A stretch of 47,010 bases of DNA from Rothia similimucilaginosa (lineage in GTDB: Bacteria; Actinomycetota; Actinomycetes; Actinomycetales; Micrococcaceae). The notes below the pieces were generated by a model, which saw only the letters and a list, made by a program, of their open reading frames with translations, did no database searches and was not told where the DNA came from. Positions 20,706-31,876 of this stretch are shown here, in pieces (position 1 is the stretch's first letter; each line of letters opens with the position of its first letter). The stretch spans positions 1-47,010 of the forward strand of contig NZ_JAOVAM010000011.1 in the NCBI RefSeq assembly GCF_029850875.1, given 5' to 3'. Both the position numbers and the translations under genes were made by a program.

Positions 20706-20781
20706 GCGCCTGTAGCTCAACGGATAGAGCATCTGACTACGGATCAGAAGGTTGGGGGTTCGAATCCCTTCGGGCGCACCA
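20706..20781 (+). tRNA. tRNA-Arg (anticodon ACG)
   Basis: The acceptor stem GCGCCTG pairs with CGGGCGC, with one G-T pair. The anticodon stem TCTGA/TCAGA encloses the loop CTACGGA, giving anticodon ACG, read as ICG after A34 deamination for CGU/CGC/CGA arginine codons. The T arm has GGTTCGAATCC and CCA is encoded (20779-20781). A clear promoter precedes and a terminator follows, so it is a single-gene unit. Confidence 0.97.
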
Positions 20782-20784
20782 CCG

Positions 20785-20816
20785 ATCCCCGGTTCTTCGG
20801 AACCGGGGATTTTTTA
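20785..20816 (+). terminator. Terminator of tRNA-Arg
   Basis: ATCCCCGGTTC (20785-20795) pairs perfectly with GAACCGGGGAT (20800-20810) around a TTCG tetraloop, followed by TTTTTA. It begins four bases after the CCA end. Confidence 0.95.
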
Positions 20817-21165
20817 TATACCCAGAAGATATACCCCGGAAGACACACCCGGGAAGATGTCTTTGGGAAACAAGCACACAGAAAACGCTCTGACACAAGC
20901 CCCGGGCAGAGCTCAAGCCACCGCATAGTACAACATGTTGCAGTACGACACGTTGCAGGGTCTAGCTAGGCGTAGCAAGGATGCTTCACCAGCTGACGCT
21001 GCCCCATCCGTGCCAAAAGCCGCACCTAAAAGTACCCCAACCTGTGAATTCACAGATTTACGCGCCCAGATGACGTGCTCCGGGGCACACCCGCCAAAAA
21101 ACGCCTAGGATGGAAAGAGGACCCTCCACGCATAGGTTGGAGAGTAGACAACGCAAAGGAGTACT
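20817..21165 (+). promoter_or_regulatory. Leader region of the paired unknown operon
   Basis: No gene is seen between the tRNA terminator and the next ATG. A possible -10 box, TAGGAT (21106-21111), lies before a small CTCCA/TGGAG stem. A strong ribosome site AAAGGAG (21155-21161) sits four bases before the start at 21166. No clear -35 box, integrase, or repeat of the tRNA 3' end is visible. Confidence 0.4.
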
Positions 21166-22653
21166 ATGGCACAGCTATCCATTCCGCAGTCCCTGATAGG
21201 TACGCTCATTGATATTGCTGACTTGGGCACCCTCGATTACTTCCCACCCACCGAACGATGCGCCCACTGGTCCCTCTATGACGCGCATCGCCAAGAACTC
21301 CTCTGCCCTTGCGCACCCGCCGCCAACACCACCGCAGAAAAGCTCTTTGAGGCCGCGGCGAAGATTCTCTACGAGAATTTCCCCCGATATATCGACTCAC
21401 CTGAGGAAATCATTCCTTATACTTCCCGTCAGGAACTCATTGCCGCCCTCCGACGCGGCGATGAGAAAACCAGCGACAGCAAGCCTCTTAAAGAAGAACA
21501 GAACGACCTGCAGGCAACCGAAACTACCGCAGACTCCACTGCTGAGGCTCCCGTTGCAGAGGCCAACGAGGGTGCAGTCAGTGAGGATGCCGTGGTAAGC
21601 GCAGCCGCCACTCCCAAGCCTGCAGCGCCGAAGCCTGCAGCGCCGAAGCCCGCAGCCCCCAAGCCTGCAGTGCCTACTCCCGGTGCTCCCTCCCCCGGCA
21701 TGTTCCGCAAGTCCACGCTAACCTACCGTCCGCCGCGCATCGAAGAGTACCTGGAGGGTCTGCGTGCCCGTCAACAGACTGCCGAAGCTGCAGAAGCTAC
21801 TCATACGGAAGCATCTAGCGAGCAGGCACCTGTTGAAGAGTTGCCCGTACTCAGCCAGCCCCTACCGAGTGCGCCCGCCGCCCCGGAGATGAGTGTCCCG
21901 AAGCCGAGCAAGCCGAAGCCCGCAGCCCCGATCCCCACGGCTACGGCAGCCATCAGCGCGCCCGCCACTCAGCCGGTAACCACTGAACCGACCGCGCCTC
22001 GCGGCATCAGCGAAGAGGACCGCGAACGCAGCTACCGCCTGCGCCCGAGCCTGCGTGCCCGCCTCGAACGCGAAAACATCAGCGAAGAGATCGTGCGCAC
22101 CATCCTGCGTAAAGGCGCGGTAGAACAACTCAACGACTGGACGATTCGCTTCACTCACGATGATTACCGGGTGGACGTTAACACCGCCTCCGCAGAAATC
22201 ATTACCGTCATTGACGAATACGACGCCGAATACAACGAAGCGGCACAAGTATCCCTGACGCACGGCAAATACAACTCGCTCAACGCCCTGGAACTCGAAT
22301 TCAGCGAGCGCGCCCGTACCTTCTTGAAGAAGAACCCGCCTTTCGTCTTCGACCTGATGCTTCATGCCCTGAGCAACCCTGAGAGCGTGCGTATGGCTGA
22401 AGGCTGGACCCGCATCTACGCGGCACAGGGTCTGGAAATTGCAATTTCGCCCGATGAGCGGACCGTTATGGCTCTTGCGAAGAGCCCGGACTTCCATCAC
22501 CTGCACGCCGAAACCCTGCGCAAGGCGCAGCTCGAAGAGCTCAGTAATGCGCTGGCTCAGCAGGCGGAAGACTCAGAAAATGCCACTGACCAGGCAGAAG
22601 ATGGCGTAACTCAGGCAGAAAACACCACCGAGGAGGAAAATAATGTCCGTTAA
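21166..22653 (+). CDS. Unknown protein A with two DUF4258-like modules
   Basis: I do not recognise this 495-aa protein as a named family. Residues 1-97 form a helical N-terminal segment starting SIPQSLIGTLIDIADL with a Cys pair (CPC, 47-49). Residues about 100-285 are a low-complexity Pro/Ala/Glu linker with a PKPAA repeat (149-169). Two similar modules follow, about 290-352 and 375-440. Each has a helix, an isoleucine/leucine-rich second helix, then a beta-hairpin containing a W-T-aromatic motif (WTIRF, WTRIY) and an ending like EIITVI or TVMALA. This resembles DUF4258, a fold linked to RelE/BECR-type toxins; the link is inferred. The tail is acidic. No signal peptide or membrane segment is seen, so it is probably cytoplasmic. 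Its stop overlaps the next gene by 11 bases. Confidence 0.8.
   Translation: MAQLSIPQSLIGTLIDIADLGTLDYFPPTERCAHWSLYDAHRQELLCPCAPAANTTAEKLFEAAAKILYENFPRYIDSPEEIIPYTSRQELIAALRRGDEKTSDSKPLKEEQNDLQATETTADSTAEAPVAEANEGAVSEDAVVSAAATPKPAAPKPAAPKPAAPKPAVPTPGAPSPGMFRKSTLTYRPPRIEEYLEGLRARQQTAEAAEATHTEASSEQAPVEELPVLSQPLPSAPAAPEMSVPKPSKPKPAAPIPTATAAISAPATQPVTTEPTAPRGISEEDRERSYRLRPSLRARLERENISEEIVRTILRKGAVEQLNDWTIRFTHDDYRVDVNTASAEIITVIDEYDAEYNEAAQVSLTHGKYNSLNALELEFSERARTFLKKNPPFVFDLMLHALSNPESVRMAEGWTRIYAAQGLEIAISPDERTVMALAKSPDFHHLHAETLRKAQLEELSNALAQQAEDSENATDQAEDGVTQAENTTEEENNVR
21610..21672 (+). repeat. 15-bp tandem repeat encoding PKPAA
   Basis: About four imperfect copies of a 15-bp unit (near gcagcgccgaagcct) encode PKPAA repeats in the linker of protein A. 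Copy number could vary between strains by slippage without shifting the frame. Confidence 0.75.
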
Positions 22654-23896
22654 GCAGATCACCGTTCCTCTTGAGGTGTACGTTCGTCTGCAGGAACTTG
22701 CCTCCCTCGCCGCCTATAGCTACCGCGATGAGCAGGGTTCCGAAGATAGCACTGCAAACAATAAGCCGTGGGATTTGCTCTCCAAGGACGGCGCATCCCT
22801 GCTCGATGAGAACGGCGCGCTCAAGCCCGAAGCAGCAGAGCTCTACTTCACCCTCCTACCGCTCATTGCCCAGGAATTCATGGAGCAGCAGCAGGCACTG
22901 GTGGACGCGTACCGTCAGGCACCCAAACCCGCCGCCGCACGCGCCAAGATTCGCCCCTCCAACCAACGCCTCATTCCGCTAACCGAGGTACCGCTGGAGA
23001 ACCAGCGTATTGCCGCGCGCATTGAGAAGGAATTCTACGGTGACGTGCCGCCGCACCGCCGCATCTACGGTGTGCTCCCCGGTGTAATGGATTACATGAT
23101 GCGCCACGGGCTCACCTACGAGCTGCTTCTGGATATCATCGAATCCCCCGCAAGCACGGTGGTTCAAGAAAGCGCACAAGAGAACCGCTACGGCCGCGAA
23201 GTTACCCTCTACACGCATGAAGAGGAAGGCTACCAGGTGGTGCTCAACCCCCTGACCGCCGAAGTGCTCGCGCTACGACCGCTGCAGGCTCTCGCTGGAG
23301 GCTATCAGCTCTCCCCCGAGGCTCAGGCTCAGCTCAAGTCGCTCGGACTGACCGGCGAGTACATTGCCCGCATCCTGGATGAGGCCGAGGACCGCCGCCC
23401 GATTCCCGGTAGTAGCCGCACCGTGTACTCGCTCAACGGCTACCAGATAGAGTTCTCGCACTCCGACCAGCAGGTAGTTCGTATTAGTCGCGGCACCGCA
23501 CCCAACCGTAACCCCTTCGAGTCGCAGCCGAGGATGAGCGGTACCAAGAGGCAGCGCGGCCGTAAGATCCCGCACGATGTGGATGCATTCGTGCACTTGC
23601 TGCAGGAGCACGGCTTCACCATCACTATGGGCGGTAAGCACTACGATATTCGCCACGAGAAGCTGGCTCCGGGTCAGAAGGCGGTCACCTCCGTAACCCC
23701 CTCGGATTCGCAGCGCTGGCACCTGAACTCGGCTCGCCAGATCCGCAATACCTTCGGTATCGACCTGCGCTACGCTGATCCGCGCGATAGTGTATGCGGT
23801 ATTGTGCGCGGCCCCGGAGGAAGCGTCCAGAACGCCGATCACCACAGCGCAGACACGCAGGACACCGAGAAGACCTCGGAGAAGGAATCCGAGTAG
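22643..23896 (+). CDS. Unknown protein B with DUF4258-like modules and a HicA-like domain
   Basis: This 417-aa protein appears to be an architectural relative of protein A. Residues 5-95 mirror A's N-terminus (ITVPLEVYVRLQELASLAAY against SIPQSLIGTLIDIADL, then a later Ala/Glu/Leu helix in both). Modules follow at about 147-212 (MRHGLTYELLLDIIESP then GYQVVLNPLTAEVLAL) and 225-283 (LKSLGLTGEYIARILDE then GYQIEFSHSDQQVVRIS). Residues about 308-376 resemble a HicA/dsRBD-like fold. They have LLQEHGFTITMGGKHYDI, where His333 takes the place of the HicA catalytic His, and the VTPSDSQRWHLNSARQIR stretch, which is like actinobacterial and phage HicA-like proteins. The start overlaps the end of A, so the two are translationally coupled. 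Toxin-like activity is only inferred; no short HicB-like antitoxin is beside it. Confidence 0.8.
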   Translation: MSVKQITVPLEVYVRLQELASLAAYSYRDEQGSEDSTANNKPWDLLSKDGASLLDENGALKPEAAELYFTLLPLIAQEFMEQQQALVDAYRQAPKPAAARAKIRPSNQRLIPLTEVPLENQRIAARIEKEFYGDVPPHRRIYGVLPGVMDYMMRHGLTYELLLDIIESPASTVVQESAQENRYGREVTLYTHEEEGYQVVLNPLTAEVLALRPLQALAGGYQLSPEAQAQLKSLGLTGEYIARILDEAEDRRPIPGSSRTVYSLNGYQIEFSHSDQQVVRISRGTAPNRNPFESQPRMSGTKRQRGRKIPHDVDAFVHLLQEHGFTITMGGKHYDIRHEKLAPGQKAVTSVTPSDSQRWHLNSARQIRNTFGIDLRYADPRDSVCGIVRGPGGSVQNADHHSADTQDTEKTSEKESE

Positions 23897-26138: not shown

Positions 26139-26287
26139 GGTGAGGCTCCTTTTGGTTGTTCCCTCGGTCGATTACTTTACGGGTAAAACATTACATGCTC
26201 TGTAGAAACCCTGTCAAGCACATCTTCCTCCCCCCAGCCCCCAACAATTCAAGAGGTGCACACCATAAACCCCGCCATAATAGATAC

Positions 26288-29200
26288 ATGACCGACGCAC
26301 TCTCCCATTTCTCCGCCCCCGTACGCGACTGGTTCCGCGCCACCTTCAGCGCACCCACCGCTGCCCAAGAATGCGCCTGGGAGAGCATCCGCAACGGCAA
26401 CAACACCCTCATTATTGCCCCCACCGGCTCCGGCAAAACCCTCGCTGCCTTCCTCTGGGCACTCGACGCCCTGCACCGCGAACACGAAGCCGGAACCACA
26501 GGCGGCACGCGCATCCTCTACATCTCGCCCCTCAAGGCACTCGGCGCCGATGTTGAACGCAATCTGCGCGCACCGCTGACCGGAATCACACGCCTGAGCG
26601 GAAACAACACAGACGAACCGAACATCAGCGTGGGCGTGCGCAGCGGCGACACCCCCGCACGCGAACGCCGCCAGCTCATCAGCAACCCGCCCGATATTCT
26701 CATCACCACCCCCGAATCCCTCTACCTCATGCTCACCAGCGCCGCCCGCAACACCCTCGCGGGCGTGACCACCGTGATCGTGGATGAGATTCACAACCTC
26801 GCCGCCACCAAACGCGGCGCACACCTGGCGGTCTCCCTCGAACGCCTCGACGCGCTCCTCGAAAAGCCCGCACAGCGCATTGGACTCTCCGCAACCATCG
26901 AAAACCCGGAGACAGTCGCCCGGTTCCTCGGCGGCATTCAGCCGGTGACCATCATGAGCCACCCGGGCACCAAAGAATGGGATCTGCGCCTGAGCGTGCC
27001 CGTACCCAATATGGCGGCGCTCGGAGGCGCCAACGACTACGGGCAAGGGCTCTACGCATCCTCGGAGGTAACGGGCGGCGGGGGCTCAGAATCTACCGGC
27101 TCACCGCGGGGCACAGCACACCCTACCTCTAGCGCAGCAAATACCCCGGTGAACGTGCCCTACACCCTGGAAGATGCCATTGGCGTATTCCCCGGACAGG
27201 AAACCGGTCAAGAAACCGGACAGGCAAACCCGGCGAGAAAGGGCGATAACGCCGCGCCCAAAAATACGCTCACCGTTTCGGAAGAGGTATTGCGAGAAGG
27301 GGCGCTGCACGAAAAGGCGTTGCGAGACACAGCCAATAGCGAGCGCCCCGAGACCTCCATCTGGCCGCGTGTGCAGGAGCGCATCGTCAACCATATTGAG
27401 AACAACCGTTCTACGATTGTTTTCGTTAACTCGCGCGGACTAGCGGAAAAGCTCACCGCGGCACTCAACGATATTCACCTGCGCCGCGTCCTCGCAAAGC
27501 AGGGAATCGACCCCGAAGACTACACGGCAGGCATCTGCGACATCACCGAGGTACCACCGCTCGCCCGCGCACACCACGGCTCCGTATCCAAGGAACAACG
27601 CACCCTCATCGAGGAGGCACTCAAGGGCGGAACCCTGCGCTGCGTCGTCGCTACCAGCTCCCTGGAGCTGGGTATCGACATGGGCCACGTGGACCTCGTA
27701 ATCCAGGTGGCCGCACCTCCCTCAGTCGCCTCCGCACTGCAGCGCGTGGGCCGCGCCGGACACCGCGTGGGGGAAATTTCGCGCGGATTCTTCTACCCCA
27801 AGCACCGCGGCGACCTGCTCGGTGCAACCGTCACACTCACCGGAATGCGTAGCGGAACCCTCGAACCGCTCACCATCCCCACCAACCCCCTGGACGTACT
27901 CGCACAGCAGACCGTCGCCGCCTGCGCGTTGGGACCCATTAGCGTGGACTCCTGGTACGAGGCGCTACGCCGCAGCGCACCCTACGCCGAACTGCCGCGC
28001 GCCCTCTTCGACTCCGTGCTCGAAATGCTCGCCGGACGCTACCCCTCCGACGAGTTCGCCGAACTGCGCCCACGCATCATCTGGGACCGCACCCCCACCG
28101 AGGAGGCGCCCTCCGGCAGTATTGAGGGCCGCCCGGGCGCACAGCGCCTCGCAGTCACCAGCGGCGGCACAATTCCCGACCGCGGGCTCTTCCCCGTCTA
28201 CCTGGTCAGCGGCGATGAAGAGCGCGGCCCGAAGCGTGTGGGTGAGCTCGACGAGGAAATGGTGTACGAATCCCGCGCCGGCGAGGTTATTACTCTCGGC
28301 GCGAGCAGTTGGCGTATTGAAGAAATTACGCACGATGCGGTGCGGGTCTCCCCCGCGCCCGGTCAGCCCGCGCGCCTACCCTTCTGGCACGGCGACCGCA
28401 TGGGCCGTCCCTACGCCCTGGGCGTGCAGACGGGTGCATTCACGCGCGCGCTCTCCAGCCTGGACGCCATCGATAGCGCCGCCGCCCGCCAGCAGCTCGA
28501 ACAGCTCGGACTGGACACCTGGGCGGTTGATAACCTGCTCACCTACCTGCGTGAGCAACGCGAATCCACCGGGGCGGTCCCTTCCGACACCCGCATGATC
28601 GTGGAACGGCACCGCGACGAACTGGGCGATTGGCGCGTGATCCTACACTCACCGCTCGGCTACGGGGTGCACGCGCCCTGGGCTCTAGCGGTACGCGCCC
28701 GCATTGAGGAGCGGTACGGGGTGGATGCCTCCGTCATGGCGAGCGATGACGGCTTGATTCTGCGCCTGCCCGCCATGGAGGATGTGCCACCCAGCGCTGA
28801 CCTGTTCCTTTTCGACCCGGATGAGCTGGAGGCAATCGTCACTGAAAGCGTGGGCGATTCAGCGCTTTTTGCGTCTCGGTTCCGTGAGAATGCGGCGCGT
28901 GCCCTGCTGTTGCCACGCCGTGATCCGGGTAAACGCACCCCGCTGTGGCAGCAGCGTCAGCGCGCTGCGCAACTGCTGGATGTGGCGCGTAAGTACCCTG
29001 ACTTTCCGGTGCTTTTGGAGACGGCACGCGAGTGTCTGCAGGATGTCTACGATGTTCCGGCGCTAGTTCAGGTACACCGTTCGTTGCAGTCTCGGGCGGT
29101 GTCCATGCTGGAGGTTGAGACAAACGACCCTTCGCCTTTTGCAAGAACTCTACTCTTTGAGTACGTTGCCGAGCACCTCTACGACGGGGATGCGCCCGCC

Positions 29201-31876
29201 GCCGAACGCCGCGCCGCCGCGCTGTCGCTGGACCCCGCGCTACTGGCTGAATTGCTGGGGTCGAGCGGTCTGCGTGACCTGCTGGATCCGGCGGTGCTGG
29301 TGCAGACTCAGCAGCGTCTGCAGCGCACAGGTGAGCGTTATCGTGCCTACGGTGTGGAGGGCGTGGCGGATCTTTTACGTCAGCTGGGTCCGTTGAGCGC
29401 GCAGGAGTTGAGTCTGCGTATGCGGACTGACAGCCTGCAGGCTGCGGCGCACGGTTCGCAAGATTTCGGCGAGTCCGAGGACTCTGAACACTACGGCGAG
29501 GAGTACGGCGCGCGCGCCAGCACGACTGAGGCGCATGCCCTAGCGGAGGAGCTGGTGCGCTCACGTCGCGCGTTCTCGTTCATGGGAGCTGCCGGTAGTT
29601 CCGCCGAGCCGCAGCTGTACTATGCGGTGGTTGAGGATGCCGCGCGCCTACGCGATGGGCTGGGTATTATGCCCGCCGCGGCGATTCCTACTGCCCTGTT
29701 GGAGCCGGTCGCCGAGCCTTTAGAGGATCTGGTTTCTCGCTATGCGCGCACCCATATTCCCTTTACGGCGCAGCAGGCGGCGGAGCATTTTTCGCGTCTG
29801 ACCCCGGTGGGTGTGGGTGTGCTGGCTCCGGTGTTGCAGCGTCTTCAGCAGCAGCGCCGTCTGAGCTCTGGTGAGTTCCTGCCCGAGGTGTTGCGTGCCT
29901 CCGGGACGGCTGGTGTTGAGTGGGTGGATGCGCAGGTTTTGCGCACGATTCGCGCCCGTTCTCTGGCAGCGTTACGTGAGGAGATTGAGCCGGTATCGGC
30001 GCAGGTCTATGGCATTTTCCTACCTTCGTGGCAGAACGTTCGTTCTTTATCTGTGCGGGTTGCGCAGACCCTACCGGAGGCAAGCGCCTATGGTGCGTTC
30101 ATACCCTCCCGCCGCGCCGCCGCTGTGGTGGGCGAGAGGGTGGCACCCCTCGGCTCGGCAGCGCCCAACCCGATGGCACTCAACTCGGCGGCACTCACCC
30201 CGATAGCACAGAACGGTGCAGAAAACGGCATCGCTCATGCGGGCCAGGATTCCGCCTCCACCACGGAGGATCTGCTCACCGCCATCGACCAGCTCGCGGG
30301 TGTGCGCGTACCGGCTTCTGCACTGGAGACGCTGATTCTTCCAGCACGCGTGCCCGGTTACCAGCCGCACATGCTGGACGAGGTCATGGCCAGCGGCAGG
30401 GTGTTCTTCACCGGTGCCGGTCAGCTCGGCGGGGGTAGCACGCAGAAGTCTGACGGCTGGATTCGCCTGCATTTGAGCGAGAGTTCTTCGCTGACTCTGG
30501 GTGAGGACTACCCGGAGCAGCTATTGCGCACGGAGAACCCGGAGCTCTGGGAGGCGCTGCAGGCTCCGGGCACGCTCGAGCACGCCATCTATGAGGCGCT
30601 GGCTCACGGCGGCCTGTTCGTGTCGGCACTGCGTGAGCGGGTGGTGCAGCTGATGAGGGCGGCGGCACCTGCTGGTCAGGTAGTGACTTTCCCGGATGCT
30701 GCGGAGGTTTCGGCGGCATTGTGGCGCTTGGTGTGGGCTGGTGCGGTGACGAACGATAGTTTCGCACCGGTTCGGGCGATGCTTGCCGGTGTCCGCAGTG
30801 CGCATCCGACTCCGGCGGCTGCCGCGCGTCTGTCGCGGGTAGGTCGCCGCGGTGCGGGTCGTATTGCGGCGGCACGCGCCTCCATGGGTAACGGCATGGC
30901 GGGCGGTTTCAATGCTGGCAATTATGGTTCCGGCGGCTACTCTGCGCCTGCCACCGGGCGCGGTCTGCATTCCCTGCGCAACAATTCCCTCCGCGGCGGG
31001 CTCCATACCATCACTCCCACTGTTGCCCCGCAGGATAGCGGTCGCTTCTCACGCGTGGACACGCTGCTACAGGAGCCTGTAGAGGCAACGGTTGCGGCAC
31101 TCGCACGCGCCGACCTGTTACTGGACCGCTACGGTGTGCTGACTCGCGGATGCTTGCAGGTGGAGGATTCTACCGGCGGATTCTCGCAACTGTACCGGAT
31201 TTATTCGGCGGCTGAGGATCGTGCGCTGGTACGTCGCGGCTACTTTATTGAGGGTTTGGGTGCGGCGCAGTTCGCCGCCCCCGCAACCGTGGACCTGCTG
31301 CGTTCTACCGCCGATAATCTCAGCGTTCCCACAGGTCCACAGAGTTTTGGTGCGAGCGCCTACACCCCGCAGCGTACAGATACGGAACAGGTGTACGGCA
31401 CGTTCACGGTGACCCTGTTGGCAGCAACCGACCCGGCGAACCCGTACGGTGCGGCGCTGAGCTGGCCCACGATTCCCTCCTTCGCGCATGAGGGGGCGGG
31501 AGTCGTCAAGCACCGCCCGGCACGCAAGGCGGGCGCCTGCGTAGTACTGGTGGACGGCGCACCGGTGCTGTATGTGGAGCGTGGCGCGAAGACCCTGCTG
31601 GCTTTTACCACCGACCCGATACTTCTGGAGGCGGCAGCCCCCGCCCTGGCGCGCCTGGTGTCTGCCGTTGGTGCGGAGAAGATTTCGGTGGAGAAGGTCA
31701 ACGATGTGGAGCTTTTGAACACCCACACACTGGATACATCCACACCGGGCGCATCTACACTGGGCATCTCTGGCGGCGAGGTTATGGAGCATCCGGTGGA
31801 GGCACTGCGTGCAGCACTGCAGGCGCAGGGTTTCTACGCAACGGTTCGTGGCCTGTCGCTACACCGTTCCATTTAG
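26288..31876 (+). CDS. lhr: Lhr-family ATP-dependent helicase, enlarged
   Basis: This superfamily 2 DNA helicase has 1862 aa; most actinobacterial Lhr proteins are near 1500-1600. Motif I is APTGSGKT (Lys50), motif II is DEIH (166-169) and motif III is SAT (201-203). Motif IV is IVFVNSR (about 376), and the motif V-VI region reads SSLELGIDMGHVDLVIQ to QRVGRAGHRVG (about 487). A winged helix and the Lhr C-terminal domain follow. The extra length includes a low-complexity insert at about 252-358 (Gly/Ser then a GQETGQETGQ repeat) and a Gly/Ala/Asn-rich stretch near 1518-1558. Lhr repairs DNA crosslinks and other damage. The ATG is six bases after a CATAAT box, fitting a leaderless message; the upstream open frame is not protein-like. 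Codon choice shifts near 28.8 kb. Confidence 0.93.
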   Translation: MTDALSHFSAPVRDWFRATFSAPTAAQECAWESIRNGNNTLIIAPTGSGKTLAAFLWALDALHREHEAGTTGGTRILYISPLKALGADVERNLRAPLTGITRLSGNNTDEPNISVGVRSGDTPARERRQLISNPPDILITTPESLYLMLTSAARNTLAGVTTVIVDEIHNLAATKRGAHLAVSLERLDALLEKPAQRIGLSATIENPETVARFLGGIQPVTIMSHPGTKEWDLRLSVPVPNMAALGGANDYGQGLYASSEVTGGGGSESTGSPRGTAHPTSSAANTPVNVPYTLEDAIGVFPGQETGQETGQANPARKGDNAAPKNTLTVSEEVLREGALHEKALRDTANSERPETSIWPRVQERIVNHIENNRSTIVFVNSRGLAEKLTAALNDIHLRRVLAKQGIDPEDYTAGICDITEVPPLARAHHGSVSKEQRTLIEEALKGGTLRCVVATSSLELGIDMGHVDLVIQVAAPPSVASALQRVGRAGHRVGEISRGFFYPKHRGDLLGATVTLTGMRSGTLEPLTIPTNPLDVLAQQTVAACALGPISVDSWYEALRRSAPYAELPRALFDSVLEMLAGRYPSDEFAELRPRIIWDRTPTEEAPSGSIEGRPGAQRLAVTSGGTIPDRGLFPVYLVSGDEERGPKRVGELDEEMVYESRAGEVITLGASSWRIEEITHDAVRVSPAPGQPARLPFWHGDRMGRPYALGVQTGAFTRALSSLDAIDSAAARQQLEQLGLDTWAVDNLLTYLREQRESTGAVPSDTRMIVERHRDELGDWRVILHSPLGYGVHAPWALAVRARIEERYGVDASVMASDDGLILRLPAMEDVPPSADLFLFDPDELEAIVTESVGDSALFASRFRENAARALLLPRRDPGKRTPLWQQRQRAAQLLDVARKYPDFPVLLETARECLQDVYDVPALVQVHRSLQSRAVSMLEVETNDPSPFARTLLFEYVAEHLYDGDAPAAERRAAALSLDPALLAELLGSSGLRDLLDPAVLVQTQQRLQRTGERYRAYGVEGVADLLRQLGPLSAQELSLRMRTDSLQAAAHGSQDFGESEDSEHYGEEYGARASTTEAHALAEELVRSRRAFSFMGAAGSSAEPQLYYAVVEDAARLRDGLGIMPAAAIPTALLEPVAEPLEDLVSRYARTHIPFTAQQAAEHFSRLTPVGVGVLAPVLQRLQQQRRLSSGEFLPEVLRASGTAGVEWVDAQVLRTIRARSLAALREEIEPVSAQVYGIFLPSWQNVRSLSVRVAQTLPEASAYGAFIPSRRAAAVVGERVAPLGSAAPNPMALNSAALTPIAQNGAENGIAHAGQDSASTTEDLLTAIDQLAGVRVPASALETLILPARVPGYQPHMLDEVMASGRVFFTGAGQLGGGSTQKSDGWIRLHLSESSSLTLGEDYPEQLLRTENPELWEALQAPGTLEHAIYEALAHGGLFVSALRERVVQLMRAAAPAGQVVTFPDAAEVSAALWRLVWAGAVTNDSFAPVRAMLAGVRSAHPTPAAAARLSRVGRRGAGRIAAARASMGNGMAGGFNAGNYGSGGYSAPATGRGLHSLRNNSLRGGLHTITPTVAPQDSGRFSRVDTLLQEPVEATVAALARADLLLDRYGVLTRGCLQVEDSTGGFSQLYRIYSAAEDRALVRRGYFIEGLGAAQFAAPATVDLLRSTADNLSVPTGPQSFGASAYTPQRTDTEQVYGTFTVTLLAATDPANPYGAALSWPTIPSFAHEGAGVVKHRPARKAGACVVLVDGAPVLYVERGAKTLLAFTTDPILLEAAAPALARLVSAVGAEKISVEKVNDVELLNTHTLDTSTPGASTLGISGGEVMEHPVEALRAALQAQGFYATVRGLSLHRSI

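Follow-up and report, generated by a model that had tools for sequence, protein, structure and literature searches.

Paired Rothia genes with repeated BECR-like modules and a HicA-like domain, and their one-gene relatives in actinobacteria

Among known systems, those nearest to the proteins considered here include the BECR-fold RNases, such as colicin E5, CdiA-CT NC101 and RelE/ParE, and the HicA mRNA interferases (Pfam: PF07927), in which the histidine of the GSH motif is catalytic. To our knowledge, nearly all known examples of the BECR and HicA folds are toxins. DUF4258 (PF14076) is counted among the BECR-fold RNases in one published account (PMC11980606). We describe two overlapping genes, A and B, in a stretch of 47,010 nucleotides from Rothia similimucilaginosa (contig NZ_JAOVAM010000011.1, positions 1 to 47,010; hereafter the window), whose products carry four modules with a predicted BECR-like fold and a single HicA-like domain. 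Neither protein has any match in Pfam or NCBIfam in searches up to E 10, in agreement with an earlier note on this DNA, made from the letters alone, which knew of no described family with this layout. A literature search on DUF4258/BECR, HicA, and Rothia and Brachybacterium toxin-antitoxin (TA) systems yielded no title on this architecture, most subscription papers and all bioRxiv preprints lying outside its coverage. A and B represent a real family that has no Pfam or NCBIfam model and is built of known folds. We tentatively favour the view that an actinobacterial RNA-acting protein was duplicated and that A and B are its two halves, which are likely to form a complex.

The modules and the HicA-like domain

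Both reading frames were confirmed, with an overlap of 11 bases and an AGGAG-type ribosome site 5' of each gene. The mirrored layout described in the earlier note extends to an I-x-[IV]-P-like starting helix (I-x-VP/IP in its wording), found as LSIPQ in A and ITVPL in B. The four modules, of about 70 residues each, are mutually homologous, which bears out the repeats that had been read in both genes: all six module pairs match in profile-profile comparisons with hhalign (E 2.2e-4 to 6.9e-8, values that are pairwise rather than database-corrected and shift up to about 20-fold when the profile order is swapped), and for each pair 0 of 100 column shuffles reach the observed value. All 24 control pairs, in which a module profile (A1, A2, B1, B2, one-gene or single-module) was set against an N-terminal or HicA-like profile, give E of at least 0.045.

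DSSP assigns to each of the four modelled modules a strand, two helices and four strands, of which the initial strand spans just 1-3 residues. The best structural alignments of the A and B models in the PDB are to BECR-fold toxins (colicin E5, CdiA-CT and RelE), with modest Z, and by title BECR-type nucleases or TA toxins make up the first 23 of the 50 structural matches listed for the B model and the first 18 of the 50 listed for the A model. Of the earlier proposal, the general fold is probable at this modest Z, BECR/RelE-type structures being the best match for all four modules; its specific assignment to DUF4258 is weakly supported: the pooled modules align with a profile built on 10 of 11 detected DUF4258 segments (E 4.7e-5, 0/100 shuffles), mainly in the helices, and the curated cut-off of PF14076 is reached by none of A, B, the scanned relatives or the proteins of the window's genome. 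Membership in DUF4258 was rejected in favour of a weak relation. By eye, the four modules share no invariant basic residue at any corresponding position (one invariant arginine is seen in A2 and another in B1, with none in A1 or B2), a comparison limited by the variation of catalytic residue sets between BECR families. Searched by sequence against the PDB, B has no match and A has 18 up to E 10, all weak; the best of these, the acyltransferase 8x02 (E 4e-4), was discounted as an effect of composition, spanning residues 199-303, which are nearly all Ala/Pro-rich linker.

The last domain of B matches phrog_2053 (E 1.8e-7) and phrog_2089 (E 9.4e-5). Compared by hhalign with 21 of the 29 PF07927 segments found, the pooled domain scores E 2.8e-7, the one-gene proteins described below 5.2e-7 and the B orthologues alone 4.4e-4, whereas nine of nine control profiles give 0.011 or worse. 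HicA 6hpb is the sole PDB match of the B profile (E 0.18), with the histidine aligned; this residue aligns to the histidine of GSH and is kept in all 18 aligned domains, and the model of B shows a helix, three strands and a helix in this region. The PHROG matches, the PF07927 comparison and the model support the earlier reading of a HicA-type end with GKH in place of GSH. The curated PF07927 cut-off of 27 bits is missed throughout, with no match for B, 13.6-20 bits for five relatives and none in the window's genome. HicA is also absent from the 50 structural matches listed for each model, an uninformative result as the modules fill both lists. No HicB antitoxin was found, the sole adjacent same-strand partner being A, for which searches of Pfam, NCBIfam and PHROG gave no match.

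Both genes are under purifying selection. Relative to the three nearest relatives, dN/dS is 0.10-0.16 for the whole of B, 0.18-0.20 for the whole of A, and only 0.034, 0.034 and 0.038 for the HicA-like domain; module B1 shows no difference from the two nearest of these (dN/dS 0.0) and gives 0.094 against the third. In the comparison with two more distant genomes, conservation is highest in the HicA-like domain, with 84.5% and 69% identity as compared to 39-54% for the other parts of B.

One-gene relatives and the division of features

In Rothia kristinae a single protein of 273 residues consists of an N-domain, one module and a HicA-like domain, and its gene is flanked by those for a Na+/H+ exchanger and a thiolase (named by Pfam among open reading frames of 130 aa or more). 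A protein combining the module with the HicA-like domain is present in 35 of 38 Brachybacterium genomes, in which the search found no adjacent second copy and, in a few genomes, a weak second match elsewhere; Dermabacter and Kocuria varians have the one-gene form as well. In both of these it adjoins a tRNA(U5)-methyltransferase-type gene (a name taken from Pfam for that of Dermabacter only), and in a Brachybacterium such a gene lies about 4.6 kb off. More widely, phrog_2089 matches 38 of 297 genomes across the order, and the B-family profile 9 of 394 across the class, seven of the nine at the module only. Single-module proteins of 127-142 residues were read in five of those seven; they match the one-gene module in hhalign (3.3e-9), and none exceeds a Pfam cut-off. 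Pfam and NCBIfam matches of the scanned relatives are sub-threshold only.

Comparison of A and B with these proteins points to a partition of features. The N-domains of A and B are distantly related to each other (hhalign E 0.0023 or 0.0085; 0/100 shuffles, the best of them 0.017), and that of B matches the R. kristinae N-domain at E 0.017. The CxHW..CPC motif, a putative metal site, is seen in seven of seven A proteins (one read from a fragment) and in none of seven B proteins; at A's C, H, C and C columns R. kristinae has H, H, C and H. The linker motif P[ST]Pxx[LFM] occurs in A in all seven carriers, in 22 of 24 distinct one-gene proteins, in none of seven B proteins and in none of five single-module proteins, with the proviso that it was chosen after looking and that 20 of 300 shuffles of the window's A also carry one. 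The HicA-like domain is present in B and not in A. All of these divided features, namely the Cys/His N-domain, the linker motif and the HicA-like domain, are held by the single R. kristinae chain, and this sharing out of the features of one chain between A and B suggests that the two act jointly.

In light of these comparisons, we propose that the Rothia ancestor may have resembled the one-gene protein of R. kristinae, with a Cys/His N-domain, a flexible linker bearing P[ST]Pxx[LF], one BECR-fold module and a HicA-like domain. The clade of the window would have seen a tandem duplication of this gene, a doubling of the module and a division of the features, such that A would have retained the Cys/His N-domain and the linker motif without the HicA-like domain, and B the HicA-like domain without the other two. 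Expressed from one operon, A and B would most likely assemble into a complex with the full ancestral set, in which the Cys/His residues could bind a metal, the HicA-like domain could bind or cut RNA through its invariant histidine, and the BECR-fold modules, which lack a basic residue invariant across the four, could serve as an RNA- or ribosome-binding scaffold. The A-B complex would most likely bind or cleave RNA, a toxin-antitoxin function being less likely. We regard as doubtful a more elaborate version in which the pair is a split RNA-processing machine, derived from a duplicated one-chain protein, with the Cys/His N-domain and the HicA catalytic domain divided and an RNase-toxin fold doubled into a four-module RNA-reading array, that is, a toxin fold tamed into a vertically inherited chromosomal RNA-binding repeat. 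What weighs against the proposed ancestry is that the Cys/His motif is absent from 23 of the 24 one-gene proteins. As only one has it, the Cys/His set may be a gain of Rothia rather than an ancestral feature, and the split is for the same reason less certain than the modules.

Genomic setting and upstream region

The closest named match to B is from Rothia mucilaginosa 141_RMUC (82%). Among 59 relatives, B has matches in 12 (E <= 0.001), of full length in seven, and A in ten, namely the seven with full-length B, R. kristinae via the N-domain and two via the linker; three A matches lying in the Ala/Pro linker (G040, G056 and G009 C1:2122979) were discounted, and G008 was taken as an N-domain match only. 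The B profile matches 14 of 35 Rothia genomes (seven with the pair, R. kristinae with the one-gene form and six with only a short separate HicA-like frame) and has no match in the other 21. Three of the short frames, of 76-84 residues, were read (L037:5663-5893, L039:5582-5824 and L040:5966-6220); the last adjoins, by eye, a tyrosine-recombinase-like gene.

The linkage of A and B noted earlier is strict in all seven genomes with full-length B, where A adjoins B and the order is PEPCK, tRNA-Arg, A, B and ferredoxin (neighbours named by Pfam). PEPCK is present in 33 and ferredoxin in 32 of the 35 Rothia genomes. As to B orthologues lacking A, which the earlier note would have counted against its reading if regular, none was found inside the clade of the window, but one-gene relatives without A do exist. 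Its suggestion of horizontal movement beside tRNA-Arg finds no support. The place between PEPCK, tRNA-Arg and ferredoxin is the same in 7/7 carriers, and no att-like repeat was found, the longest stretch shared with the tRNA being 9 bases as against 7-12 in random controls. Searches with tblastn gave no match for A and B in phages or plasmids, nor for two relatives in phages. No integrase was noticed by eye among the open reading frames, a profile search for integrases not having been made. Given the fixed place and the lack of an att-like repeat or of phage or plasmid matches, the pair looks to have entered or survived in one clade, with vertical inheritance there.

By eye, the nine longest of the 15 non-carrier intervals contain other genes or none that could be named, and no A-B pair. 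The tRNA-Arg/ferredoxin interval also carries differing cargo across Rothia species (L092-L100, by eye), for example a UDP-glucose-dehydrogenase-like gene and a sensor/regulator pair, differences that may point to gene turnover there. The identity of B ranges from 95 to 39%, as against 98 to 86% for PEPCK. The reading frame of A is broken in G010, where an in-frame stop in the linker splits it into two open pieces (L033:7532-8866), and in the R. aeria record; in G015, module A2 is missing from A. B is intact in all seven. An Lhr-type helicase (by Pfam) lies at 26156-31876 of the window, 2.3 kb downstream of B, and also downstream in the six other carrier loci; many PADLOC models of defence helicases, DpdJ among them, match this protein.

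Upstream of A, four of the seven carriers have a palindrome, GTGCNCCGGNGCAC, close (by eye) to where a -35 element would be expected; in two of the four it is perfect. It occurs at a single place in the window's genome, as does a reversed control pattern, and a strict promoter scan returned no site; at most, it might tentatively be considered an operator. A second palindrome-like stretch of 20 bases, AACCTGTGAATTCACAGATT, is located at 21039-21058, with a near copy in one relative (L031).

Table 1. Positions of the gene pair, its parts and associated features (window coordinates unless a locus is given)
Feature	Position	Strand	Remarks
Gene A	21166..22653	+	495 aa: Cys/His N-domain, Ala/Pro-rich linker, two BECR-fold modules (predicted), C-terminal helix
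A N-domain (residues 2-76)	21169..21393	+	hhalign vs R. kristinae N-domain E 7e-10; more distant to B N-domain
CxHW...CPC in A (C32, H34, C47, C49)	21259..21312	+	Putative metal site
PSPGMF linker motif in A	21688..21705	+
Module A1 (residues 290-355)	22033..22230	+	BECR-like fold
Module A2 (residues 375-443)	22288..22494	+	BECR-like fold
Gene B	22643..23896	+	417 aa: N-domain without Cys/His set, two BECR-fold modules (predicted), HicA-like domain
B N-domain (residues 4-90)	22652..22912	+	From hhalign
Module B1 (residues 142-215)	23066..23287	+	BECR-like fold
Module B2 (residues 221-287)	23303..23503	+	BECR-like fold
HicA-like domain of B (residues 308-378)	23564..23776	+	GKH with H333 at 23639-23641, then TPSD..RW..N tail
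Near-perfect palindrome GTGCTCCGGGGCAC	21075..21088	.	5' of TAGGAT -10-like site (21106-21111, by eye); possible operator
tRNA-Arg(acg), flanking	20706..20781	+	Upstream of A in 7/7 carriers; in 15/15 non-carrier intervals fetched
Terminator-like hairpin	20784-20811		Directly 3' of tRNA-Arg
Single-module proteins, other actinobacterial families	L110:1297-1725, L111:1345-1728, L112:1561-1968, L114:1297-1701, L115:1297-1701

Alternative functions and comparison with known systems

The overlap of the genes, with the putative antitoxin first, and the histidine at the catalytic position of the HicA-like domain would also fit a TA module of paralogues, in which B is a HicA-type mRNA interferase, A is an antitoxin binding it via the related N-domains or modules, and the palindrome at 21075, judged by eye to lie close to where a -35 element is expected in 4/7 carriers, is an autoregulatory operator. 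We consider this unlikely: B stays intact in both genomes where A is interrupted, Pfam gives nothing for A up to E 10, and the one-gene form, present in 35/38 Brachybacterium genomes unlike patchy TA modules, has no adjacent second copy there and is bordered in R. kristinae by exchanger and thiolase genes. That same wide presence in Brachybacterium, together with the purifying selection on A and B, the lack of a basic residue invariant across the four modules, and the tRNA(U5)-methyltransferase-type gene near the one-gene form in three genera, is what might be expected of a housekeeping RNA-binding factor, for instance ribosome- or tRNA-associated, in which the BECR and HicA-like folds merely hold RNA without nuclease activity. 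This too we judge rather improbable, as the histidine kept in 18/18 domains and the conservation of the HicA-like domain against distant relatives suggest catalysis, and the family profile finds nothing in 21/35 Rothia genomes.

An anti-phage defence pair, with an RNase released during infection, seems the least probable of these alternatives and quite unlikely in itself. BECR toxins have been proposed to act in defence (PMC11980606); B diverges fast relative to PEPCK, the PADLOC 'HicA-like' model matches both one-gene relatives scanned (8e-7 and 7e-5), and the downstream helicase matches models such as DpdJ. However, that helicase is Lhr-type by Pfam, seven of eight neighbours scanned have no PADLOC match, A has none and B just one (E 0.023), and the chromosomal place is fixed. 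If the favoured reading of A and B as halves of one RNA-acting protein is true, a conserved chromosomal family joining the BECR and HicA folds would show how toxin folds get domesticated, and the single gene of 35/38 Brachybacterium genomes, set against the two-gene split of the Rothia clade, would offer a testable case of a protein divided between genes.

With the BECR-fold RNases (colicin E5, CdiA-CT NC101 and RelE/ParE) the pair has in common the predicted strand, two helices and four strands of all four modules; it differs from them in spreading four copies, without a Pfam match, over two partner proteins, in having no basic residue invariant in all four, and in that no antitoxin is seen adjoining the one-gene form. 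The likeness of B to the HicA mRNA interferases lies in the helix-three strands-helix arrangement, the invariant histidine and the pooled hhalign match of 2.8e-7, but here the domain is fused to BECR modules, has GKH for GSH and an extra TPSD..RW..N..R tail, and lacks a HicB partner. The phage families phrog_2053 and phrog_2089 are related to this domain alone. The one-gene proteins of R. kristinae, Brachybacterium, Dermabacter and Kocuria varians have the same module and HicA-like domain as the pair, in one gene with one module and, in 23/24, without the Cys/His N-domain motif; that of R. kristinae also has a Cys/His N-domain related to that of A.
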